64,000 bases of DNA from Prevotella sp. E2-28 (lineage in GTDB: Bacteria > Bacteroidota > Bacteroidia > Bacteroidales > Bacteroidaceae), in NCBI RefSeq assembly GCF_022024055.1, contig NZ_CP091788.1:310001-374000 (forward strand), written 5' to 3'. Under the pieces are notes generated by a model that was not told the DNA's origin, made no database searches, and was given only the letters and a program-made list of their open reading frames with translations. Shown piece by piece: positions 4,643 to 58,441 of the stretch. The stretch's first letter is position 1, and each line of letters begins with the position of its first letter. The position numbers were made by a program, and so were the translations under genes.

Positions 4643-4690
4643 GCTACCGCCAACAAAATTATCAATCATCAATTGTCAATTGTCAATCAA
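4643..4690. repeat. GCTACCGC box with adjacent short tandem repeats
   Basis: GCTACCGCC is followed by degenerate copies of a 7-8 bp unit (ATCAATC, ATTGTCA, ATTGTCA). The same box-plus-repeat design recurs at 9441, 9834, 19289 and 24772. Here the repeats lie on the opposite side of the box from most other copies. Confidence 0.6.
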
Positions 4691-8631: not shown

Positions 8632-9396
8632 TTATACTTGGCTCTCTCCTTCGATATATTGCTGTAAGAACAGGTGTTGTCCGTCCCATACGGCATAGGT
8701 GAACTGACTGATCCAGTCGCCCAGAATGAGGATGCGGGCTTTTTTCGTCAATTGCAGGTCCAGTTCAATATGCCGGTGACCGTAGATGAAGAAATCTACA
8801 TTTGAGTGATACTGGATATATTTCTTGGTGTAAAGCACCAGATGCTCGCGGTCTTCACCCAGATAAGGGGGTGTTCCATTTGATTCGTGTTTGATGCGTG
8901 AGTGCTTAGCCCAGGTCAGACCAAACCAAATGCTCCAACGGGGATGTACCGTAGCAAGGGCAAACTGACAGAACTTACTATGGAAAAGCCAGCGAAGCAC
9001 TTTGAATTTCTTATCAGGATCTCCCAGACCGTCACCGTGAGCCAGATAAAACACCTTTCCATAGAGTTCTATCGTCTGTGGTTGTCTGTGGATAATGACG
9101 CCGCACTCCTTTTCGAGGTAATCGTAGGCCCAGATGTCATGGTTGCCTGTGAAGAAATGTACCTCAACGCCCATGTCGGTCAGTTCGGATATCTTGCCGA
9201 GGAAACGTGTGTAACCCTTTGGCACCACATATTTAAACTCGTACCAGAAGTCGAACATATCGCCCAGTAGATAGACGGCAGCGGCCTTATCCTTGATAGA
9301 GTCAAGGAAACGCACCAATCGGCGCTCCTGCATCCGCCTGTGGTCTATAGCCCAAGAGCCGAGGTGAGCATCAGATAAAAAATAAATCGATTTCAT
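8632..9396 (-). CDS. lpxH: UDP-2,3-diacylglucosamine diphosphatase (LpxH type)
   Basis: LpxH hydrolyses UDP-2,3-diacylglucosamine to lipid X and UMP in lipid A synthesis at the inner membrane. The 254-residue calcineurin-like phosphoesterase shows all metal-binding blocks: SDAHLGS (8-14), LLGDMFDFW (42-50), GNHD (83-86), HGDGLGD (119-125) and YGHRHIE late in the protein. The length is close to that of known LpxH proteins. The gene lies just outside one arm of the inverted-repeat cassette at 9410-9874, which separates it from any upstream promoter. Confidence 0.88.
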   Translation of the reverse strand: MKSIYFLSDAHLGSWAIDHRRMQERRLVRFLDSIKDKAAAVYLLGDMFDFWYEFKYVVPKGYTRFLGKISELTDMGVEVHFFTGNHDIWAYDYLEKECGVIIHRQPQTIELYGKVFYLAHGDGLGDPDKKFKVLRWLFHSKFCQFALATVHPRWSIWFGLTWAKHSRIKHESNGTPPYLGEDREHLVLYTKKYIQYHSNVDFFIYGHRHIELDLQLTKKARILILGDWISQFTYAVWDGQHLFLQQYIEGESQV

Positions 9397-9409
9397 CGCT
9401 TTCTTTTTT

Positions 9410-9874
9410 AGTGTAGAGTTCAGAGTGTAGAGTGTAGAGTTTGCTACCGCTCTTCTCTAATCTAAATGGTTATTCTTTTCTTTATTGTCTTAATTGATTG
9501 GACCAACATTTTTATCAGTTCGTCATTATCTTTTTTCATTGAGACAAAGCCCCGTTCGTCAATATAACCCGCATGGTGTAAGCGCGCCAGCCAATATTCT
9601 GTCTCGTTGGCCTCTTTGAGTGCAATGCTTAGCTTGTTGATAAAGTCTGCTTCGCTTTGAGCGTTTATGCTTTCGGCAATGTTAGCGCCGATACTTGTGC
9701 CGCTGCGGTATATCTGTTTTGACATGACATTTTCGCCTTGGCTGCCAACGAATTTCTGCAACTTGACTATACGGTCGGCAAACATTTCTGATTTATGACG
9801 CAAAATGCTCTCTTTTCTTGGCATAATATATGGGCGGTAGCAAACTCTACACTCTACACTCTAAACTCTACACT
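9410..9874. mobile_element. Four-helix-bundle gene cassette bounded by 41-bp inverted repeats
   Basis: Two 41-bp arms face each other, 9410-9450 and 9834-9874, differing at one position (9421 C versus its partner). Each arm has, from outside in, four copies of an AGTGTAGAG-like unit and then TTTGCTACCGC next to the gene. The enclosed 383 bp hold one gene and nothing else. Size and symmetry suggest a small mobile or mobilisable unit. No transposase is present inside and no target-site duplication was recognised. The possibility that the arms only act as RNA structures cannot be excluded. Confidence 0.6.
9462..9824 (-). CDS. Four-helix-bundle protein (23S rRNA intervening-sequence / S23 family)
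   Basis: The 120-residue, mostly helical protein carries the family signature: KSEMFADRIVKLQKFV, then KQIYRSGTSIGANIAES, then EADFINKLSIALKEANETEYWLARLHHAGYI. This matches the IVP/S23 family first seen encoded in 23S rRNA intervening sequences and related to the Avd accessory proteins of diversity-generating retroelements. The molecular role of free-standing members is unknown. The gene is enclosed by a 41-bp inverted repeat; GCTACCGC ends 9 bp upstream of the ATG. There is no rRNA or reverse transcriptase nearby. Confidence 0.88.
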   Translation of the reverse strand: MPRKESILRHKSEMFADRIVKLQKFVGSQGENVMSKQIYRSGTSIGANIAESINAQSEADFINKLSIALKEANETEYWLARLHHAGYIDERGFVSMKKDNDELIKMLVQSIKTIKKRITI

Positions 9875-9875
9875 A

Positions 9876-10196
9876 TCAGTCAAACCCCAATTCCACTCTA
9901 GCTTCTTCACTCATCATGCTTTGATCCCAAGCGGGTTCAAACACCAGGTTGACGTTAGCGCTTTTGACGCCCTCTACGCTTTCTACCTTGGTGCGCACAT
10001 CTTCGAGGATGAAGTCGGCAGCAGGACAGTTGGGGGCCGTAAACGTCATGTCCAGTTCTACGGATGAGTCGTCCTGTACGTCAATCTTGTAAATCATTCC
10101 CAAGTCATAGATGTTGACGGGAATCTCTGGGTCATAGACGGTCTTCAGCACATCCACGATCCGCTCTTCTATTTTTGTCTTTTCTTCTTGTAACAT
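9876..10196 (-). CDS. DUF59 / MIP18-family iron-sulfur assembly protein (SufT/PaaD-like)
   Basis: Start at 10196 (MLQEEKTKIEERIV) gives 106 residues, normal for a stand-alone DUF59 domain. Signatures are TVYDPEIPVNIYDLGMIY, DMTFTAPNCPAADFI with the conserved Cys, and VNLVFEPAWDQSMMSEEARVELG at the C-terminus. Members help mature Fe-S proteins in the cytosol. No suf genes are adjacent, so the partner is unknown. The ATG directly follows an 18-bp perfect inverted repeat that contains a -7 element, so its transcript would be leaderless or nearly so. Confidence 0.85.
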   Translation of the reverse strand: MLQEEKTKIEERIVDVLKTVYDPEIPVNIYDLGMIYKIDVQDDSSVELDMTFTAPNCPAADFILEDVRTKVESVEGVKSANVNLVFEPAWDQSMMSEEARVELGFD

Positions 10197-10250
10197 AATT
10201 GCTGCAAAGATACGCATTTTTTATTTAATACACGTATCTTTGCAGCAATT
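10197..10250. promoter_or_regulatory. Perfect 18-bp inverted repeat with oppositely oriented -7 elements
   Basis: AATTGCTGCAAAGATACG (10197-10214) is repeated as its exact reverse complement at 10233-10250, with an 18-bp AT-rich centre. Each arm contains TATCTTTG: on the minus strand at 10205-10212, aimed at the DUF59 gene, and on the plus strand at 10235-10242, aimed into the 3' end of the M3 peptidase gene. No good -33 elements were found. As RNA it would fold into a strong hairpin next to the DUF59 start codon. Confidence 0.65.
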
Positions 10251-10272
10251 TTCTAATTCTCACCTTTTATCT

Positions 10273-13214: not shown

Positions 13215-14228
13215 TTACTTGTAGAAGTTCTTTTCGAAAGCAGTAAACTCGTCCTGCTTCAAGACGCAACGCTTCCACCACGACTCGATGAAACCAAAGC
13301 CGTAGCCCATGAGCTGAACAAAGGCAGCAGGGATGCTGAGAAGGCCTACCCAAAGACTCTTGTTAAGAATACTAGAGTCGATGCAAATAATGAGGCAGTA
13401 TAATATGATAGGTGATAGCGCTAGGAGTGATAAGCTGGGAACCAAGAATAGTAGGATGGCTGCACACAATAGCAGGCTAATAACGCCTAAGGTAAATACG
13501 GTGGGCAACAGGTGAACAATCTTGAGTGTGCCTGGATGGCGCTTCTCAAGGTTGATGCGGGCGATTCCGCTGTTATAGACCTGACGGAAGAACTTGCGGA
13601 AGTCGGTACGACGCTTGTGCCAAACCCAAGTCTCAGGGATGAGGGCAGTCTTATAGCCTGCCTCTACGATGCGATAAGAGAAGTCGATGTCTTCGCCAAA
13701 GCGCATCTTTGAAAAGCCTCCCAACTCCAGATAGACCTCACGACGGATGCCCATGTTATAGGAACGGGGGAAGAACTTATCGAGTTTCTTGCCTTTACCA
13801 CCGCGAATGCCACCTGTGGTAAAGAATGAGGTCATGCTATATGAAATAGCTTTTTGGACAGGGGTAAATGATGGGTGAGAGGCATCGGGGCCGCCGAAGG
13901 CATCAATCTGCGAGTTTAATCCTTCATCTACAGAAAGTAGATATCCTGCTGGTAGTACCACATCTGAGTCGAGCACGATGAGCCAATCGCCCTTGGCACG
14001 CTCTGATCCATAGTTGCGGCTCTGTCCTGGGCCGCTGTTTTCTTTGAAGTAATAATGCAAATCAAGGATGCCTGCGTACTTGTCGCAGACATCCTTGCAT
14101 GGTTTCTTCGATCCGTCTTCAACGATGACGACCTCAAAGTCTTTCACTTCCTGATGGCAGAGACTCTCTAAGAGTTCATCAACTTCATCAGGACGATTGA
14201 AGACTGGAACGATAATGCTATAGTTCAT
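13215..14228 (-). CDS. Family 2 glycosyltransferase with C-terminal membrane segments
   Basis: The 337-residue protein has a GT-A catalytic domain: SIIVPVFNRPDEVDELLESL at the N-terminus, VVIVEDGSKK, GPGQSRNYG, the DxD-type WLIVLDSDVVLP near residue 93, and FGEDIDFSYR late in the domain. Two or three hydrophobic segments follow (about 245-300), anchoring it in the inner membrane. It likely transfers a sugar from a nucleotide donor to a lipid-linked or surface glycan; the substrate is unknown. Its first codons, ATG AAC TAT, lie inside a run of 7-bp repeats that read ATGAACT, so the repeat supplies the start codon. Confidence 0.87.
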   Translation of the reverse strand: MNYSIIVPVFNRPDEVDELLESLCHQEVKDFEVVIVEDGSKKPCKDVCDKYAGILDLHYYFKENSGPGQSRNYGSERAKGDWLIVLDSDVVLPAGYLLSVDEGLNSQIDAFGGPDASHPSFTPVQKAISYSMTSFFTTGGIRGGKGKKLDKFFPRSYNMGIRREVYLELGGFSKMRFGEDIDFSYRIVEAGYKTALIPETWVWHKRRTDFRKFFRQVYNSGIARINLEKRHPGTLKIVHLLPTVFTLGVISLLLCAAILLFLVPSLSLLALSPIILYCLIICIDSSILNKSLWVGLLSIPAAFVQLMGYGFGFIESWWKRCVLKQDEFTAFEKNFYK

Positions 14229-14309
14229 AGTTCATAGTTCAAAATTCATAGTTCATAGTTTTCGCTCATCATTCATAAGATGGCGTAGCCCAACTATGAA
14301 CTATGAACT
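14221..14309. repeat. ATGAACT-type 7-bp repeats forming an inverted repeat
   Basis: Degenerate tandem copies of AGTTCAT run from 14221 to 14259, and AACTATGAACTATGAACT at 14292-14309 is their reverse complement, giving a long imperfect hairpin. The centre contains GGCGTAGCC, possibly related to the GGCGGTAGC box seen elsewhere. The left part overlaps the start of the glycosyltransferase gene and the right part ends 8 bp from the efp stop. Confidence 0.7.
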
Positions 14310-18120: not shown

Positions 18121-19281
18121 ATGGTAGAAGGAATAGAGCAGTTTAATGATATTAGGCCGTATGAGCCGGAGGAGATGAAGCAGGCGTTCAATGATTTGTT
18201 GAACGACCGCCAGTTTAATCTTATCATGAAGGGATTCGCGCCCTGGCTGCCTAAATTCCTTCGCAATGGCTTGCTGCGTCTGGCTTTTGTAGGGGTAAAG
18301 TCGCCCCTGGATTTCCAGAGGCGGTTTATGAAGCCTGTGGTCAACTATGTCATTCGCAAACATACGGATGGATGTACATTTGAGGGAAGTCTGTTGCCTG
18401 ATGATAAACGGGGGCCGCGCTATACGTTCGTCAGTAATCATCGTGACATCGTACTCGACTCAGCTTTTCTAGATTTGCTGTTGTTTAAGCATGATTATCC
18501 CACCACTGTAGAGATTGGTATTGGCGACAACCTGCTGATTTATCCTTGGATTAAGCGATTGGTGCGCATGAACAAGGCCTTCACGGTGCGTCGTGGCTTG
18601 TCTGCTCATGAAATGTTTGAGAGTAGTCAACTGATGAGCCGCTATATTCATTTTGCTGTTACTAAGAAGCGTGAGAATATATGGATTGCACAGCGTGAGG
18701 GACGTGCTAAGGATTCAGATGACCGTACGCAGGAGTCGGTATTGAAAATGATGGCTATGGGTGGTGACTTGAAAGAGTTGAACATTGTTCCTCTGACCAT
18801 CAGCTATGAGTTTGACCCTTGTGACTACCTGAAAGCACAAGAGTTTCAGCAAAAACGCGACAATCCAGCTTTCAAGAAAAGTAAACAAGATGATCTGGAT
18901 AATATGAAGACGGGCATCTTTGGCTATAAAGGACGAGTGACATATCATTGTGGTACGCCTATCAACCAATGGATAGGCGAACTTGATGGACTGCCGAAGA
19001 ATGAGTTCTATGCACAGTTGGCCCAACGTATGGATAAGGAGATTCATCGTGGCTATACGCTCTATCCCTGCAACTATATCGCCTTGGATGAGCTGAATGG
19101 TAATACGGAGCAGAGTGCTTATTATACCGCTGCTGACCGCCAGCGCTTTGAGGCTTATCTGAATGGACAGTTGGCAAAAATCAAACTGACTAATAAAGAT
19201 GAGTCATTCCTACGTCGTAAGATGTTGGAGATGTATGCCAATCCTGCTATTAATAAGGGTAAAGTGATAAGTGAATCGTGA
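18121..19281 (+). CDS. PlsC-like glycerolipid acyltransferase
   Basis: The 386-residue protein resembles Bacteroidales acyltransferases annotated as 1-acyl-sn-glycerol-3-phosphate acyltransferase. The catalytic region reads YTFVSNHRDIVLDSAFLDLLL, an H...D motif one residue longer than the usual HX4D, and the substrate-binding region WIAQREGRAKDSDDRTQESVLKM resembles the EGTRS block. No transmembrane segment is obvious. It probably acylates lysophosphatidate or a related lipid; the modified motif leaves the exact substrate open. It starts 3 bp after ddl. Confidence 0.78.
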   Translation: MVEGIEQFNDIRPYEPEEMKQAFNDLLNDRQFNLIMKGFAPWLPKFLRNGLLRLAFVGVKSPLDFQRRFMKPVVNYVIRKHTDGCTFEGSLLPDDKRGPRYTFVSNHRDIVLDSAFLDLLLFKHDYPTTVEIGIGDNLLIYPWIKRLVRMNKAFTVRRGLSAHEMFESSQLMSRYIHFAVTKKRENIWIAQREGRAKDSDDRTQESVLKMMAMGGDLKELNIVPLTISYEFDPCDYLKAQEFQQKRDNPAFKKSKQDDLDNMKTGIFGYKGRVTYHCGTPINQWIGELDGLPKNEFYAQLAQRMDKEIHRGYTLYPCNYIALDELNGNTEQSAYYTAADRQRFEAYLNGQLAKIKLTNKDESFLRRKMLEMYANPAINKGKVISES

Positions 19282-19288
19282 AAAGTCT

Positions 19289-19296
19289 GCTACCGC
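19289..19296 (+). repeat. GCTACCGC box at a start codon, with short repeats upstream
   Basis: AAGTGATAAGTGAATCGTGAAAAGTCT is summarised as degenerate AAGTG(A/T) repeats (19262-19288); it is followed by GCTACCGC, which ends 1 bp before the ATG at 19298. The box has the same orientation towards a gene start as at 24772 and in the four-helix-bundle cassette. Confidence 0.6.
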
Positions 19297-19297
19297 A

Positions 19298-19951
19298 ATG
19301 AAGAGAAGTCTTTTACTTTTTCCCCTTTTTACTTTCTTACCTTTTCTAACCTCCTGTACTCAGGATGCTTATGAGAAGGGTGAGGGCGAACTGTCGGCAA
19401 TGATAGCTGAAATGGGTGATGGTTTTACTACGTCAGATAAGAAGGTGACGCGCTTTGTGACCGATAATGGTGAGCAGTTTTCTGTAAGTAATCCTTTCTC
19501 TTCAAACATCATGCCAAAGGCCGATACGGTGTATCGCGCTATTTTCTATTATGTGAAAGATGGTACGAAGGCTGAGGTGAAAGGATTGAATAGGGTGGTG
19601 GTGGTTTCTCCTCAGAAGATGCAGGAAGTGAAAACGGATCCTGTGCGACTGGAAAGCGTTTGGATGGGTAAATCGAAACAATACCTGAATATGTCACTCT
19701 ATCTGATGCATGGCTATACGGATAATGAGGAGGCCAATCACAAGATTGGCTGCCGACGTGATTCTATACATCAGAATACCGATGGCACCAAGACGCTTCA
19801 TCTGACATTCTATCATGATCAGAACGGTGTGCCGGAATATTATTCACAGCGCATCTATTTAAGTATTCCGCTTCAATCGTTAGGTGTTGATTCCGTTAGG
19901 TTAAATGTCAATACCTATGATGGGATGTCAGAGAAGCGTATCAAGATTTAG
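19298..19951 (+). CDS. NigD-like lipoprotein
   Basis: The start at 19298 (MKRSLLLFPLFTFLPFLTSC) gives 217 residues with a lipoprotein signal ending in the lipobox Cys20. The rest is beta-rich (DNGEQFSVSNPF, YRAIFYYVKDGTKAEVKGL, a VESVWMG-like LESVWMGKSKQYLNMSLYL segment) and resembles the Bacteroidetes NigD-like two-domain proteins of unknown function. An upstream in-frame ATG overlaps the acyltransferase gene and adds nine residues that do not look like a signal peptide. It closes the 15376-19951 run. Confidence 0.68.
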   Translation: MKRSLLLFPLFTFLPFLTSCTQDAYEKGEGELSAMIAEMGDGFTTSDKKVTRFVTDNGEQFSVSNPFSSNIMPKADTVYRAIFYYVKDGTKAEVKGLNRVVVVSPQKMQEVKTDPVRLESVWMGKSKQYLNMSLYLMHGYTDNEEANHKIGCRRDSIHQNTDGTKTLHLTFYHDQNGVPEYYSQRIYLSIPLQSLGVDSVRLNVNTYDGMSEKRIKI

Positions 19952-23997: not shown

Positions 23998-24753
23998 ATG
24001 GCAGAGAATAAGAAAGTAGTCATTGAACTGCAGAACGTGAAGCGCTACTTCAAGGTGGGTAGCGAGACGGTGAAGGCTCTTCGCGGTGTCTCGTTCAAAA
24101 TCTATGAAGGCGAGTTTGTCACGATCCAAGGTACATCTGGCTCGGGCAAGTCAACGCTTCTGAATCAGTTGGGCTGTCTGGACACGCCCACCAGCGGGGA
24201 CTATTTCCTCGATGGTATTTCTGTGCGTGAGATGTCGAAGACCCAGCGTGCTCATCTGCGTAACCGTAAGATTGGCTTCGTGTTCCAGAACTATAACCTG
24301 TTGGCGAAGACCACGGCAGTAGAGAATGTAGAGCTGCCGTTGATGTATAACCCCGAGGTGTCAGCAACTGAACGGCGTGAACGTGCTATCAAAGCTCTGC
24401 AGGCCGTGGGACTAGGCGACCGCTTGGATCATAAGTCCAACCAGATGTCGGGTGGTCAGATGCAGCGTGTGGCCATCGCCCGTGCACTAGTCAATGAGCC
24501 CGCTGTGTTGCTGGCCGATGAGGCTACGGGTAACCTTGATACACGTACCTCGTTCGAGATGCTGGTACTTTTCCAAGAACTCTATCGTCAGGGCCACACC
24601 ATTATCTTTGTGACCCACAACCCTGAGATTGCCGAATACAGCAGTCGTAACATCAACTTACGAGATGGCAAAATACGTGAGGATACCTATAATGAGAACA
24701 TCAAGTCGGCAGCCGAGGCTTTGGCTGCGCTGCCGGTAACTAATGATGACTAA
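23998..24753 (+). CDS. MacB-type ABC ATPase (separate polypeptide)
   Basis: This 251-residue ATPase has Walker A GTSGSGKST, Q-loop FVFQNYNLL, signature MSGGQMQR, Walker B VLLADEATGNLD and H-loop FVTHNPE. In E. coli MacB the ATPase and permease are fused; here they are two genes, as is common in Bacteroidetes. It would energise the permease encoded 26 bp downstream. The C-terminal 25 residues beyond the ATPase core are a short tail. Confidence 0.94.
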   Translation: MAENKKVVIELQNVKRYFKVGSETVKALRGVSFKIYEGEFVTIQGTSGSGKSTLLNQLGCLDTPTSGDYFLDGISVREMSKTQRAHLRNRKIGFVFQNYNLLAKTTAVENVELPLMYNPEVSATERRERAIKALQAVGLGDRLDHKSNQMSGGQMQRVAIARALVNEPAVLLADEATGNLDTRTSFEMLVLFQELYRQGHTIIFVTHNPEIAEYSSRNINLRDGKIREDTYNENIKSAAEALAALPVTNDD

Positions 24754-24771
24754 GTGAAAAGTGATAAATTT

Positions 24772-24779
24772 GCTACCGC
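24772..24779 (+). repeat. GCTACCGC box directly at a start codon
   Basis: AAGTGAAAAGTGATAAATTT (24753-24771 region) precedes GCTACCGC, whose last base abuts the ATG of the permease gene at 24780. This fills the whole gap between the ATPase and permease genes. Confidence 0.6.
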
Positions 24780-44257: not shown

Positions 44258-44357
44258 AGCCTACTTATTCAGTTATTCACTTATTCACTTTGGACATTAA
44301 GGTATTGCAATATGGTTTGCCTGTAGGATAGATTAAAGAGTAATATCCTAAATATTA

Positions 44358-44401
44358 TTTTATATTATATATATTATTATAATAATATATATAATATAAA
44401 A
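44358..44401. repeat. Perfect 44-bp AT-only palindrome
   Basis: Two 22-bp arms of only A and T meet at TTATTA|TAATAA (44379/44380) without a loop. It lies at the centre of the larger inverted repeat ATGTCCAAAGTGAATAA... . Such a sequence can extrude as a cruciform. Confidence 0.9.
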
Positions 44402-44642
44402 ATTCTATCAAGTAAAATTAAAAAAATATAGATGTCCAAAGTGAATAACTGAATAAGTGAATAACTTAAGAAAAAAAACATCTTACAATACCGCTGTGAG
44501 GAGCTCGCCATTTCACCCCCTCAAACTGCCATCTCCTGCCCCTCGAACTGCCTGCTCTTTAAAATTATTCCCATCGCTCAGCAATTCGTTTCCATTCTTT
44601 AAACTTTTTCTTTAAGGGCGGGGGCACGCAGAATCCATAATC

Positions 44643-55046: not shown

Positions 55047-57374
55047 TTATTTCATCTGATCCAATAGTTTTGCAAGACCTTCGAGGTCGCGAGGGTCGGC
55101 ATTGACATCAAGCACCTTTCCGTCGCGGTCGATGAGTTTGTAAGTTGGGAAACTGTGAACTTGCAGGAAATGCTCTACAGCACTCTGCTGATAGGCGGGC
55201 AGGTTGTAGTGGACGACGTTTTCGCCAACGACATTATACTCCTTGATGACGTTCTTCCATCCATCCTCAGGGCTGCGGTTGGCCAAATAGAGATACACGA
55301 GATTGTAGTCCTTCAGTCGCTCGTATTCCTCCTGACTGTGCGAGAGTGCTAATTTGCAAGGACCGCACCAAGTGCCCCAGATGTCGAGCAGAACAAGACG
55401 ACCGCGATAGGGTTCAGTAAGCTTGCGGAGTATCTGCTCACCATCGCTCATATTTGCCACATCGTCGTTAGTCTTCAGATTGCCCGACTTAGTGATGTCA
55501 CGTTGCTGTATTTCCAGATACTTGTTTTGCAGCGCCATAACGGCAGCTTTGGCAGAAGGCAGTTGCACTTCCAAATTCATCATGTTCATGGCAGCAGGGG
55601 GAAGGATGGTACGCTTCTCGTTGATGGCCCGACAGAACTGGCGTGCCAAAGAGATGTCACGCAGCGCGCGATCGCACCCCACAGAGTCGAGCACCTCCAT
55701 TGTCTGGCGGTAGCCGGTAAGATTCATCTCGTCCTGCAGTGGGTCTCCCATGCGGACTATCAGGGCGTTCAGCGTGGTGACGGTCTCGCTGGAGTTGAAG
55801 GCATTGATAAGGGAGTCGCGCTCCTGCTGTGAGATATCGTTCTTGACACCAGCCTTCAGTTGATTGTGCATGATGATATACTGATTCAACGCCTCACGTT
55901 CTTTGTCGGTCAGGGTCACCATACCTTGCTGTTCTAAACGCAGCACTGTGTTTCTGAAGTGTATGCCCCAGTCTCCTTGCTGCGTGTCTCTGAGGTGATT
56001 GAGATAGTCACGAACAAAGGTGCTGAAGTCTCTATAGAGCGTATAGGGCTTGCAGGCTTTCTTCCAGAGTTCGTTGCCCACATAGTCCATATATTCTTTG
56101 GGAAGATCGTACCCAGGAATGGAGTAGCGGGCCTGCATCATCGCTTCACCCTGACTGGTCAGATAATAGCCAGAAAGATAGTCGATGTATCGCTGTGAGA
56201 GGTTGGGATGCTGGGCCAGACAGTTCTGTAGCTTTGTCATGCTGGCAGCACGCGAGTCGTCTGTCCGAGCCTTGAACTGCATCGCAGTTACTTTACCTTC
56301 TTCCTTGTCCTCAATACGGTCGTTGTTCCAGTCGTGAGGATGCGCCAGCAGTTCGTTCTGCAACCTGACGTCATCGCCCATCCAAAGCGTCTGTCCTGTC
56401 AAGAAATCATAGAGGAAGAAGTAGGTCTTGCCTGGTTCCAGCAGGGTGCTCTTCGTTGTTCGTCCCCAGTCGAGGAACGCCTGCGAAGAGTTCAGAATCG
56501 GCATCTTAAACGAAAAACGTCCTAGGGAGTCCATCTTCGCATAAGAACTTTCCTCCTTGTCGCTGAAGATGTTTTCAATACCGATACCAAATTCTTTTCC
56601 TCGCTCCCACGCCACCTTGGGCATATCCTTCAGCCAGCCAATGATAGTCACGCTATCGTTTGTTCGGTAGCCGTTGTCAACAAAGCCCTTGCGTAGATCC
56701 TTCGTGGGATAGTCAGGCAGTGCTGCCGTAACGATAGGACTGCACGTCACAGCCTTCTCCTTGCCGATAGTGATGCTGCGCTTGCCTTTTTTCATCTTCC
56801 CGACCATGATGGCGGGACCATCAGCAAGCGTCAGCGTATAGGTGTCTTTTTTCTCCGTCTGACTCACGATGTCCCAAACCTTATTCTTATAGATGACGTG
56901 CTGAGGCGTGATACCGATGAGCCAGTCGCCTGTGGCTTCGTTGCGCCAGTAGGTGTGGGTGATACCTTCTGGTAAGCAGTTGGCATTGCGGATGTTCAGC
57001 AGTTGCAGACCATCGGGCGACATGAAGTCAAACTTCTGCGTTGTTACAGGCAGCGGCTCGAACGACATCGTCAGTTTCAGCGTGTCCTCCGTCATCATGT
57101 AGGGCTCGCCCAGTTTGATGACGGTAGCCTCCGTCACCTTGTATTCCTTGCCATCGGCTTTCAGGGCAGTTCCTGGCATAAAGCCTATCTGCTGACCTTT
57201 GCGGAAGTTAATTTGCAGGTCTACATCTGTACGGTCTGTGTACATAGCCACACGATTCACTTTGATGATGGGAACGTTGGCATACCCCATAACAATATCA
57301 TTCCAAATAATCTCTTGTGCCTGACTTGTCAGCGCGATGAGAGCGAGAAATGCGGAAAGGATGATTTTTTTCAT
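55047..57374 (-). CDS. Secreted TlpA-like thioredoxin-domain protein (paralogue 2)
   Basis: The 775-residue protein has a signal peptide (MKKIILSAFLALIALTSQAQ), an N-terminal beta-rich region (IIWNDIVMGYANVPIIKVNRVAMYTDRTDVDLQI), a HTYWRNEATGDWLIGITPQHVIY block shared with paralogue 1, a long helical middle and a C-terminal thioredoxin domain LVLLDIWGTWCGPCKLAL with CGPC near 667. The C-terminal half is nearly identical to the gene cut off at the right edge. It follows the gene at 57389 by 14 bp. It probably reduces disulfides or detects redox state in the periplasm. Confidence 0.88.
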   Translation of the reverse strand: MKKIILSAFLALIALTSQAQEIIWNDIVMGYANVPIIKVNRVAMYTDRTDVDLQINFRKGQQIGFMPGTALKADGKEYKVTEATVIKLGEPYMMTEDTLKLTMSFEPLPVTTQKFDFMSPDGLQLLNIRNANCLPEGITHTYWRNEATGDWLIGITPQHVIYKNKVWDIVSQTEKKDTYTLTLADGPAIMVGKMKKGKRSITIGKEKAVTCSPIVTAALPDYPTKDLRKGFVDNGYRTNDSVTIIGWLKDMPKVAWERGKEFGIGIENIFSDKEESSYAKMDSLGRFSFKMPILNSSQAFLDWGRTTKSTLLEPGKTYFFLYDFLTGQTLWMGDDVRLQNELLAHPHDWNNDRIEDKEEGKVTAMQFKARTDDSRAASMTKLQNCLAQHPNLSQRYIDYLSGYYLTSQGEAMMQARYSIPGYDLPKEYMDYVGNELWKKACKPYTLYRDFSTFVRDYLNHLRDTQQGDWGIHFRNTVLRLEQQGMVTLTDKEREALNQYIIMHNQLKAGVKNDISQQERDSLINAFNSSETVTTLNALIVRMGDPLQDEMNLTGYRQTMEVLDSVGCDRALRDISLARQFCRAINEKRTILPPAAMNMMNLEVQLPSAKAAVMALQNKYLEIQQRDITKSGNLKTNDDVANMSDGEQILRKLTEPYRGRLVLLDIWGTWCGPCKLALSHSQEEYERLKDYNLVYLYLANRSPEDGWKNVIKEYNVVGENVVHYNLPAYQQSAVEHFLQVHSFPTYKLIDRDGKVLDVNADPRDLEGLAKLLDQMK

Positions 57375-58065: not shown

Positions 58066-58268
58066 TAACACCTAACATAAGAGTTAACATAGAGTTAACA
58101 TAGACTTAACACGAACCTCATTTCCAGTCTTTTGTTAGGTCTTTTGTTAGGTCTTATGTTAGGTCTGTGTTAACTCTATGTTAAGTCCTATGTTAACTCT
58201 TGAAGGCCCTGGAATCGCTTGAAATGCCTTTAAACAGGGACTTTCTGATAATTTTATGTTAAGTCTTC
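58066..58268. repeat. 11-12 bp tandem repeats forming a large inverted repeat
   Basis: On the left, about four units like AGTTAACATAG (58070-58112); on the right, at least six of the reverse type, TGTTAGGTCTT, TGTTAACTCTA and similar (58131-58201). The two arrays could pair into a long hairpin. A partial copy TATGTTAAGTCTT lies at 58255-58267. No ORF is present. Confidence 0.75.
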
Positions 58269-58315: not shown

Positions 58316-58441
58316 AGGAGCAAGGGGCAAGGAGCAAGGGGCAAGAGATTACCTCCTTCTCTAAAAATGTATTTGCTTGCTTTTATTCTCTTTTCTATAG
58401 TTTTCAACTATTCTCTTGCTCCTTGCTCCTTGCCCCTAGAG
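58316..58441. repeat. Inverted pair of GGAGCAAGGGGCAA repeats
   Basis: GGAGCAAGGGGCAA twice in tandem (58317-58344) followed by GAG faces CTCTTGCTCCTTGCTCCTTG... (58413-58439), its approximate complement, with about 65 bp between. As RNA this would form a long purine/pyrimidine hairpin. Confidence 0.75.

Follow-up and report, generated by a model that had tools for sequence, protein, structure and literature searches.

REP/REPIN sequences are short palindromes scattered over a genome and flanking a single related gene, RAYT, and the DGR accessory protein Avd has a four-helix-bundle fold related to that of the IVP/S23 proteins. Among arrays of short tandem units, the cyanobacterial heptamer repeats are presumably those known as STRR. 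The nearest known system to the unit described here is the intervening sequence (IVS) of 23S rRNA. According to the available part of a study on Coxiella (PMC4990558), the terminal repeats of its IVS form a 28-bp stem, RNase III excises the insert, which encodes the protein S23p, and tandem heptamers lie upstream of the S23p gene; the same text argues that S23p is probably not made in Coxiella, and cites an older proposal in which the IVS reading frame served mobility. As far as the accessible sections of two further papers go, palindromic elements lie in frame in conserved genes of Rickettsia (RPEs; PMC10969869), and intergenic 7-nt arrays occur in Cyanobacteria, Beggiatoaceae and Bacteroidetes (TAACTGA; PMC4679880); the accessible main text of the latter makes no link to IVP ("S23" and "four helix" have 0 occurrences). 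Moreover, among the matches listed in the open-access literature we found no earlier link of the IVP family with mobile inverted heptamer arms.

In the window, that is, the whole stretch of 64,000 nucleotides analyzed here, an IVP/S23-family gene is enclosed by two facing arms in the spacer between a SUF-associated gene and an LpxH-like gene, outside 23S rRNA (Table 1). At the level of sequence the anatomy of this unit is clear. The arms are complementary at 41 of 42 nt (one mismatch) and stand 383 nt apart, closely matching the facing arms of 41 bp (40/41) of the original prediction, and their build from an outer tandem array and an inner tag was likewise correctly described: about four 7-nt units (AGTGTAG, AGTTCAG and similar, read inwards) are followed by TTTGCTACCGC. 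A second repeat search also read the inverted repeat as a longer 53-nt, 89% version. When positions 9405-9880 of the minus strand were taken as RNA, the predicted fold was a 42-bp stem enclosing the gene in its loop (MFE -156.7 kcal/mol; z -8.1 against 100 shuffles), while no known RNA family matched the unit. Its arm-to-arm score was 39.5, as compared with a 99th percentile of 17.5 and a maximum of 29.5 for 3481 mismatched pairs, and none of the 137 control genes in 224 kb of the same genome had arms scoring at least 18; a chance origin of these arms is therefore unlikely. Beside the SUF-associated gene, positions 10197-10250 hold a perfect 18-bp palindrome with TATCTTTGC, which we take to be a promoter motif, and may represent divergent promoters or a terminator; the palindrome (about 10195-10253) matched only microRNA families, far under the gathering score.

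Table 1. Positions of the unit, its neighbors and the related boxes and gene-less arrays in the window.
Feature	Position	Strand	Remarks
Whole unit (arm, IVP gene, arm)	9409..9875	.	467 bp
IVP/S23-family four-helix-bundle protein gene, 120 aa	9462..9824	-	PF05635, TIGR02436
Arm downstream of gene: about four 7-nt units, then TTTGCTACCGC	9409..9450	+	
Arm upstream of gene, same order on the minus strand	9834..9875	-	
Inner tag TTTGCTACCGC of downstream arm	9440..9450	+	also in elements of 6 other genomes
Inner tag TTTGCTACCGC of upstream arm	9834..9844	-	
Downstream neighbor, LpxH-like UDP-2,3-diacylglucosamine diphosphatase	8632..9396	-	below curated cut-off
Upstream neighbor, SUF-associated Fe-S assembly protein (SufT-like)	9876..10217	-	PF01883 78.3 bits; TIGR02945 just under cut-off
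Degenerate hairpin with GCTACCGC (box 19289)	19258..19341	.	by eye
One-sided array and TTTGCTACCGC directly before ATG (box 24772)	24752..24779	+	
Gene-less facing arrays, AGTTCAT units, loop 52	14222..14309	.	
Gene-less facing arrays, 8-nt units, loop 134	44265..44464	.	
Gene-less facing arrays, loop 45	58073..58195	.	
Gene-less facing arrays, 7-nt units, ends AGATTA / AGAATA	58323..58437	.	resembling arms of IVP gene L070 of another genome

The sole gene between the arms is an IVP/S23-family member, as originally predicted: 23S_rRNA_IVP (PF05635, 95.6 bits) is its only Pfam family, and TIGR02436 matched with 103.6 bits. The solved structure nearest by sequence is 2rld (E 1e-31), presumably from Bacteroides thetaiotaomicron, and a Xanthomonas IVP relative is, according to the accessible part of its description, a ring of five four-helix bundles. 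Defence or phage families gave no match to the protein at E<=0.001. Residues Q37, R40, E51 and E74 are near-invariant in 159 IVP sequences as well as 37 wider relatives; this conservation suggests a working site, not a passive scaffold. For S44 and N48 the same holds only within the 159 sequences, position 44 of the wider relatives being S in 24 and A in 13, and position 48 N in 16 and L in 20.

No catalytic domain or motif of a known type was found in the IVP protein, a result that, together with the abundance of gene-less copies described below, would suit a mobile unit carrying IVP as a passenger, with an IS transposase, a Y1/RAYT protein or a reverse transcriptase acting on the arms in trans. 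Another genome, G129, in which two IVP unit copies lie within a disrupted RAYT-like gene (the label is presumed), points in the same direction. On the other hand, PF01797 (Y1/RAYT) had no match at E<=1e-3 in the genome of the window, which is 99.5% complete, as compared with matches in 72 of the 120 genomes of the genus, so a RAYT/Y1 mover is not supported there; besides, the gene is linked to an arm type over unrelated sites (see below), unlike random cargo. We consider the passenger role rather unlikely. The analogy with REP sequences and RAYT that had originally been drawn fails in this one respect, since the genome has no Y1/RAYT match and the gene belongs to PF05635. The G129 copies (L168 and L169) are two 1070-bp stretches, 99.5% identical, with differing flanks beyond; the IVP gene, which has short facing arrays with an arm score of only 9, lies inside a broken gene that by translation we take to be RAYT/Y1 transposase-like.

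Arms proved to be the rule around IVP genes. All five IVP genes of the genome of the window have, by eye, facing short arrays with differing units, their arm scores being 39.5, 31.0, 28.0, 22.0 and 14.5; the last one (L010) is not significant by score, as it falls below the 99th percentile of mismatched partners (17.5). The comparison was extended to 159 IVP genes, a non-random sample of best-scoring and hand-picked loci among the matches listed, 5 of 164 having been left out for short flanks or a score under 40. Flanks matched at a score of at least 18 in 106 of them and of at least 15 in 122, leaving 37 genes with no arms at the latter score, while a score of 18 was reached by 2.0% of the mismatched IVP flank partners and matching arms were seen at 6 of 212 neighbor genes inside the IVP loci. 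The start codon was set at the nearest ATG, and the 60-gene table behind the mismatched-pair scores omits weak or partial matches, 7 of them above the Pfam cut-off. The best period in the 106 arm pairs was 7 in 31, 14 in 18, 8 in 27, 9 in 11, 10 in 10 and others in 9, against a flat distribution for shuffled arms. Arms had a median length of 40.5 nt, with an automatic median of 5.1 units (IQR 3.75-5.6), or about four and a tag by eye. In 224 kb of the genome of the window, the 3 gene-bearing facing array pairs enclosed no gene other than IVP.

The unit had been proposed to be small and mobile, and comparison of orthologous loci for presence and absence bears this out, as do the relatives with matching arms and the dispersed gene-less arms. 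In the genus, 110 of the 120 genomes yielded the SUF-associated gene; in the 30 best of these 110 loci, the SufT-LpxH spacer contained an IVP unit in 6, a single array in 12 and neither in 12. Spacers with the unit measured 461-483 bp, and the 24 without it 4-111 bp. The single arrays in 12 of these 24 have a period of 7 or 8, a finding made in 1 of 340 shuffled spacers. By eye, a few nt at most separate the upstream stop codon from the start of the left arm in 6/6 filled spacers, and filled and empty spacers, with their AT-rich flanks, displayed no recognizable target-site duplication. A unit lies between araD and araA in both Bacteroides faecis and a relative with 98.4% identity, while IVP was seen at none of 30 other best family loci, one of them 98.3% identical in AraD. 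Of these IVP-free spacers 27 measured 27-70 bp, and one of 101 bp had neither arms with a gene remnant nor a hairpin. Another one, of 104 bp (L441), showed arms and the apparent last bases of an IVP gene, suggesting a truncated copy; its loop scored 59, and none of 500 shuffles scored above 48 (their maximum), which is only moderate evidence because the loop is AT-rich. A 182-bp spacer (L433, genome G374) carries, by eye, a different, gene-less hairpin of the 9-nt type; the araD-araA spacer was thus hit by two element types, this hairpin and the Bacteroides faecis IVP unit. As far as sequence alignments go, these comparisons establish that the unit is present or absent at the same site between relatives.

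In most of the listed pairs, similar IVP loci have long flanks in common and thus represent orthologous sites, and TTTGCTACCGC...GCGGTAGCAAATTTTT is terminator-like in appearance (by eye); both observations would agree with static, old genes that were repeatedly lost and are flanked by bidirectional terminators or RNA-processing hairpins. This explanation is highly improbable in our opinion, considering that the same IVP clade occupies different sites, with four genomes having the window tag type in the SufT-LpxH spacer, two having it about 0.8 kb upstream of the SUF-associated gene and G067 having it elsewhere, and that there are relatives on plasmids and in other phyla as well as in-frame gene-less copies.

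IVP matches at E<=1e-12 were found in 94 of the 120 sampled genomes of the genus (among the matches listed), and PF05635 matches at E<=1e-15 in 80 of the 118 genomes sampled across the phylum. At the 30 best loci of this phylum set, arms scored at least 15 in 13 and at least 18 in 7, with 0.9% of mismatched pairs reaching 15; the arm signal is weaker phylum-wide than in the genus. The 80 best relatives in named genomes belong mostly to Bacteroidota, the others, according to record titles, to Campylobacterota, Brocadia, Opitutales, Clostridia, Acidobacteria, Beggiatoaceae and others. Three of these 80 loci were dropped, and 65 of the 77 usable ones had arms scoring at least 18, as did 12% of mismatched pairs, because many of these loci share an AATTGAC-like unit. 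We also sampled 10 of 28 plasmid and phage matches. Arms scoring at least 17.5 were present at 8/8 plasmid loci fetched (two Nostoc, Dolichospermum, Planktothrix, Euhalothece, Treponema, Bernardetia and Chlorohelix), the mismatched pairs having a mean of 9.4 and a maximum of 29.0, this maximum arising since the arms of different elements are alike there; the IVP genes on phage contigs had arms in 0 of 2 cases. At the level of sequence, arms around IVP relatives in other phyla are established. On four cyanobacterial and Chloroflexi plasmids (L454, L455, L458 and L459) the IVP gene is located beside helicase and/or DNA-methylase genes, the genes near IVP in L455 being annotated as DISARM DrmD and BREX PglX.

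The original prediction also drew attention to boxes at 4643, 19289 and 24772 with a short-repeat neighbor, which was recognized by eye at all three. The window has 9 occurrences of the motif GCTACCGC, where 1.1 would be expected (0/100 shuffles reach 9), and TTTGCTACCGC is found 17 times in the whole genome against 2 for the reversed pattern. At the GCTACCGC sites 34062, 34399, 55707 and 63366 no short-repeat neighbor was seen by eye; the sites at 55707 and 63366 lie in near-identical stretches 7.7 kb apart, an apparent gene duplication. For the 9 genomes whose protein match reaches at least 62% identity, the counts of TTTGCTACCGC were 2, 8, 15, 17, 24, 38, 42, 43 and 48 (median 24), as compared with a median of 1 in the 111 other genomes (rank test, p 1.6e-5, or p 1.7e-4 when the two boxes of the element itself are subtracted, kinship being uncorrected in both). 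At least 8 boxes without a close protein match were counted in 17 of these 111 genomes, and G037, with a match, has only 2, which argues that boxes persist or spread without the gene. Arrays were located outside the box, by eye, at 20/20 sites from other genomes, a non-random set hand-picked among the matches listed, 11 of them for facing pairs.

Gene-less facing array pairs numbered seven in 224 kb of the genome of the window, with loops of 45-134 nt, two of them repeating each other. We compared 11 such loops with IVP genes and none matched, so these hairpins are not plain deletion products of IVP units. At L109 (13712-14038) facing 9-nt arrays (CACAGATAA) are repeated about 197 bp further on, and L107 (758-2329) holds 69-nt inverted repeats, 1434 nt apart and lacking any short period, that may represent an insertion sequence. 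Copies also appear inside genes. An open frame runs right across the box at 16 of the 31 sites examined (mechanical reading), and 7 of the 10 frames tested across gene-less copies had a Pfam match, including glutaminyl-tRNA synthetase; for the ABC transporter and family 43 glycoside hydrolase frames the domain match spans the insert. Among the 30 best orthologues of the synthetase, 14 are longer at the place of the insert, 14 are without the stretch and 2 are intermediate, and 10 of the 14 longer ones contain, by eye, an array together with a box that is often degenerate. We conclude from these alignments that gene-less copies are dispersed, some of them in frame inside conserved genes. The glutaminyl-tRNA synthetase of L290 (G084) contains, by eye, a whole in-frame facing-array hairpin where its relatives have half an element.

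The frequency of gene-less hairpins, and the single arrays in 12 of 30 orthologous SufT-LpxH spacers, would also be compatible with arms that lie outside the unit, heptamer hairpins being common spacer material made symmetrical via template switching and IVP genes landing in their loops. This explanation is already weakened by the behavior of the arm types and seems unlikely to us. When loci were arranged in protein-tree order, arm unit and inner tag switched with the clade (by eye): the clade of the window protein has AGTGTAGAG arrays with the TTTGCTACCGC tag, its sister clade xxTGAGA-type arrays with the TATGATTA tag, and another clade 9-nt AGGAGTTAA units with the GACAAATGCTTT tag. A search of related genomes for flanking inverted repeats with the tag, which the original prediction had proposed, gave a consistent result: of the 9 genomes (that of the window among them) with a best match of at least 62% identity to the window protein, 7 carry TTTGCTACCG(C) on both sides, one arm among them with one mismatch, and the remaining 2, G043 (66%) and G037 (62%), carry the TATGATTA tag. 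Over 5380 pairs without detected flank homology, arm similarity correlated with protein identity (Mantel r 0.504; maximum of 1000 permutations 0.079), and in G053 two IVP clades near one gene each carry their own arm type. These comparisons establish, for the alignments at hand, a linkage of arm type and protein clade at unrelated sites. In elements of the TATGATTA type the array varies from one to another and both arms of one element agree, the identity between own arms being 0.793 against 0.551 (sd 0.033) with permuted partners (0/5000; 15 elements); for the window's own type the corresponding values, 0.807 and 0.784, did not differ significantly (p 0.11; 5 elements). This agreement within elements implies that the two arms evolve together, either via selection for pairing or by copying of one from the other. 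An IVP protein that spreads or binds the boxes would fit the linkage of clade and arms, which common descent of gene and arms would explain as well. The original interpretation is partly supported.

We estimate a probability of roughly 70% that the gene and its two arms constitute one selfish, RNA-stem-forming mobile cassette. Each arm would consist of about four short tandem units (7, 8 or 9 nt depending on the clade) and a clade-specific inner tag. Upon transcription of the host operon, base pairing of the arms would give a long RNA stem whose loop contains the IVP gene; such pairing would allow RNase III to excise the insert from the message, thereby limiting harm, as in the 23S rRNA IVS, from which this cutting is proposed by analogy. 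The IVP protein would recognize the repeated units of its own arm type, presumably by binding the arms, and assist the copying of the unit, or of any gene-less form bearing these arms, to further spacers or, in frame, to the inside of genes, perhaps through an RNA or single-stranded DNA intermediate. Points against this reading are the lack of a recognizable target duplication or known catalytic domain, the 37 IVP genes below an arm score of 15, the weaker phylum-wide signal, the high scores of some mismatched pairs in the named and plasmid sets, the arm-less phage contigs, the boxes in genomes lacking a close protein match, the non-significant arm comparison in the window's own type, the loops unlike IVP genes, and the argument that S23p is probably not made in Coxiella.

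The finding of gene-plus-arms units at changing places and in several phyla suggests that a common IVP protein belongs to overlooked jumping DNA. More tentatively, and at somewhat less than even odds in our judgment, these units could form a new class of transposable elements across phyla, having a ring of four-helix bundles as the sole protein and ends of about four 7-9-nt units and a clade tag, moving their own gene as well as gene-less copies in trans; the rRNA IVS would be members stuck in rRNA, and the class would be a source of the heptamers of Cyanobacteria, Beggiatoaceae and Bacteroidetes. If so, Q37, R40, E51 and E74 would make up a nucleic-acid-handling or catalytic site. Small genes for a "four helix bundle protein" are very common yet unexplained, and if IVP belongs to a mobile hairpin cassette, three old puzzles, namely the role of the S23/IVP protein, the reason for ribosomal IVS and the origin of intergenic heptamer arrays, become one testable question. 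In-frame palindromes, described for Rickettsia in the accessible part of PMC10969869, would then also exist in another group, here with a candidate gene for their spreading.

As regards the known systems, the unit resembles REP/REPIN sequences in its short palindromes, dispersed and cognate to a gene (the 17 of 111 genomes with at least 8 boxes being exceptions), and differs from REP/RAYT in that its arms are tandem arrays and its own genome has no Y1/HUH transposase match. RPEs are likewise in-frame palindromes in conserved genes, a likeness that concerns only the gene-less copies described here; RPEs differ in host and build, and the arms of the present copies are also found on a form that carries IVP. 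MITEs share the inverted ends, small size, dispersal and gene-less copies; here no parent IS was seen, in the 3 gene-bearing array pairs of the 224 kb, and no target duplication when filled and empty spacers were compared by eye. In contrast to the setting of DGR Avd, a reverse transcriptase is absent among the five genes around and including the unit. The heptamer repeats of PMC4679880 occur, according to its accessible text, in some of the same host groups as the IVP units. The IVS of 23S rRNA, as in Leptospira and Coxiella, has in common with the unit an S23p/IVP protein, a size of about 430-480 bp, terminal inverted repeats and a long stem, while the unit resides in spacers of protein genes, with many arm types and with gene-less copies that are dispersed and also found inside genes. 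This parallel, originally set aside, turned out to be the closer one, the Coxiella IVS having tandem heptamers of its own upstream of S23p in the available part of PMC4990558, and that IVS looks like an rRNA-resident form of the cassette.
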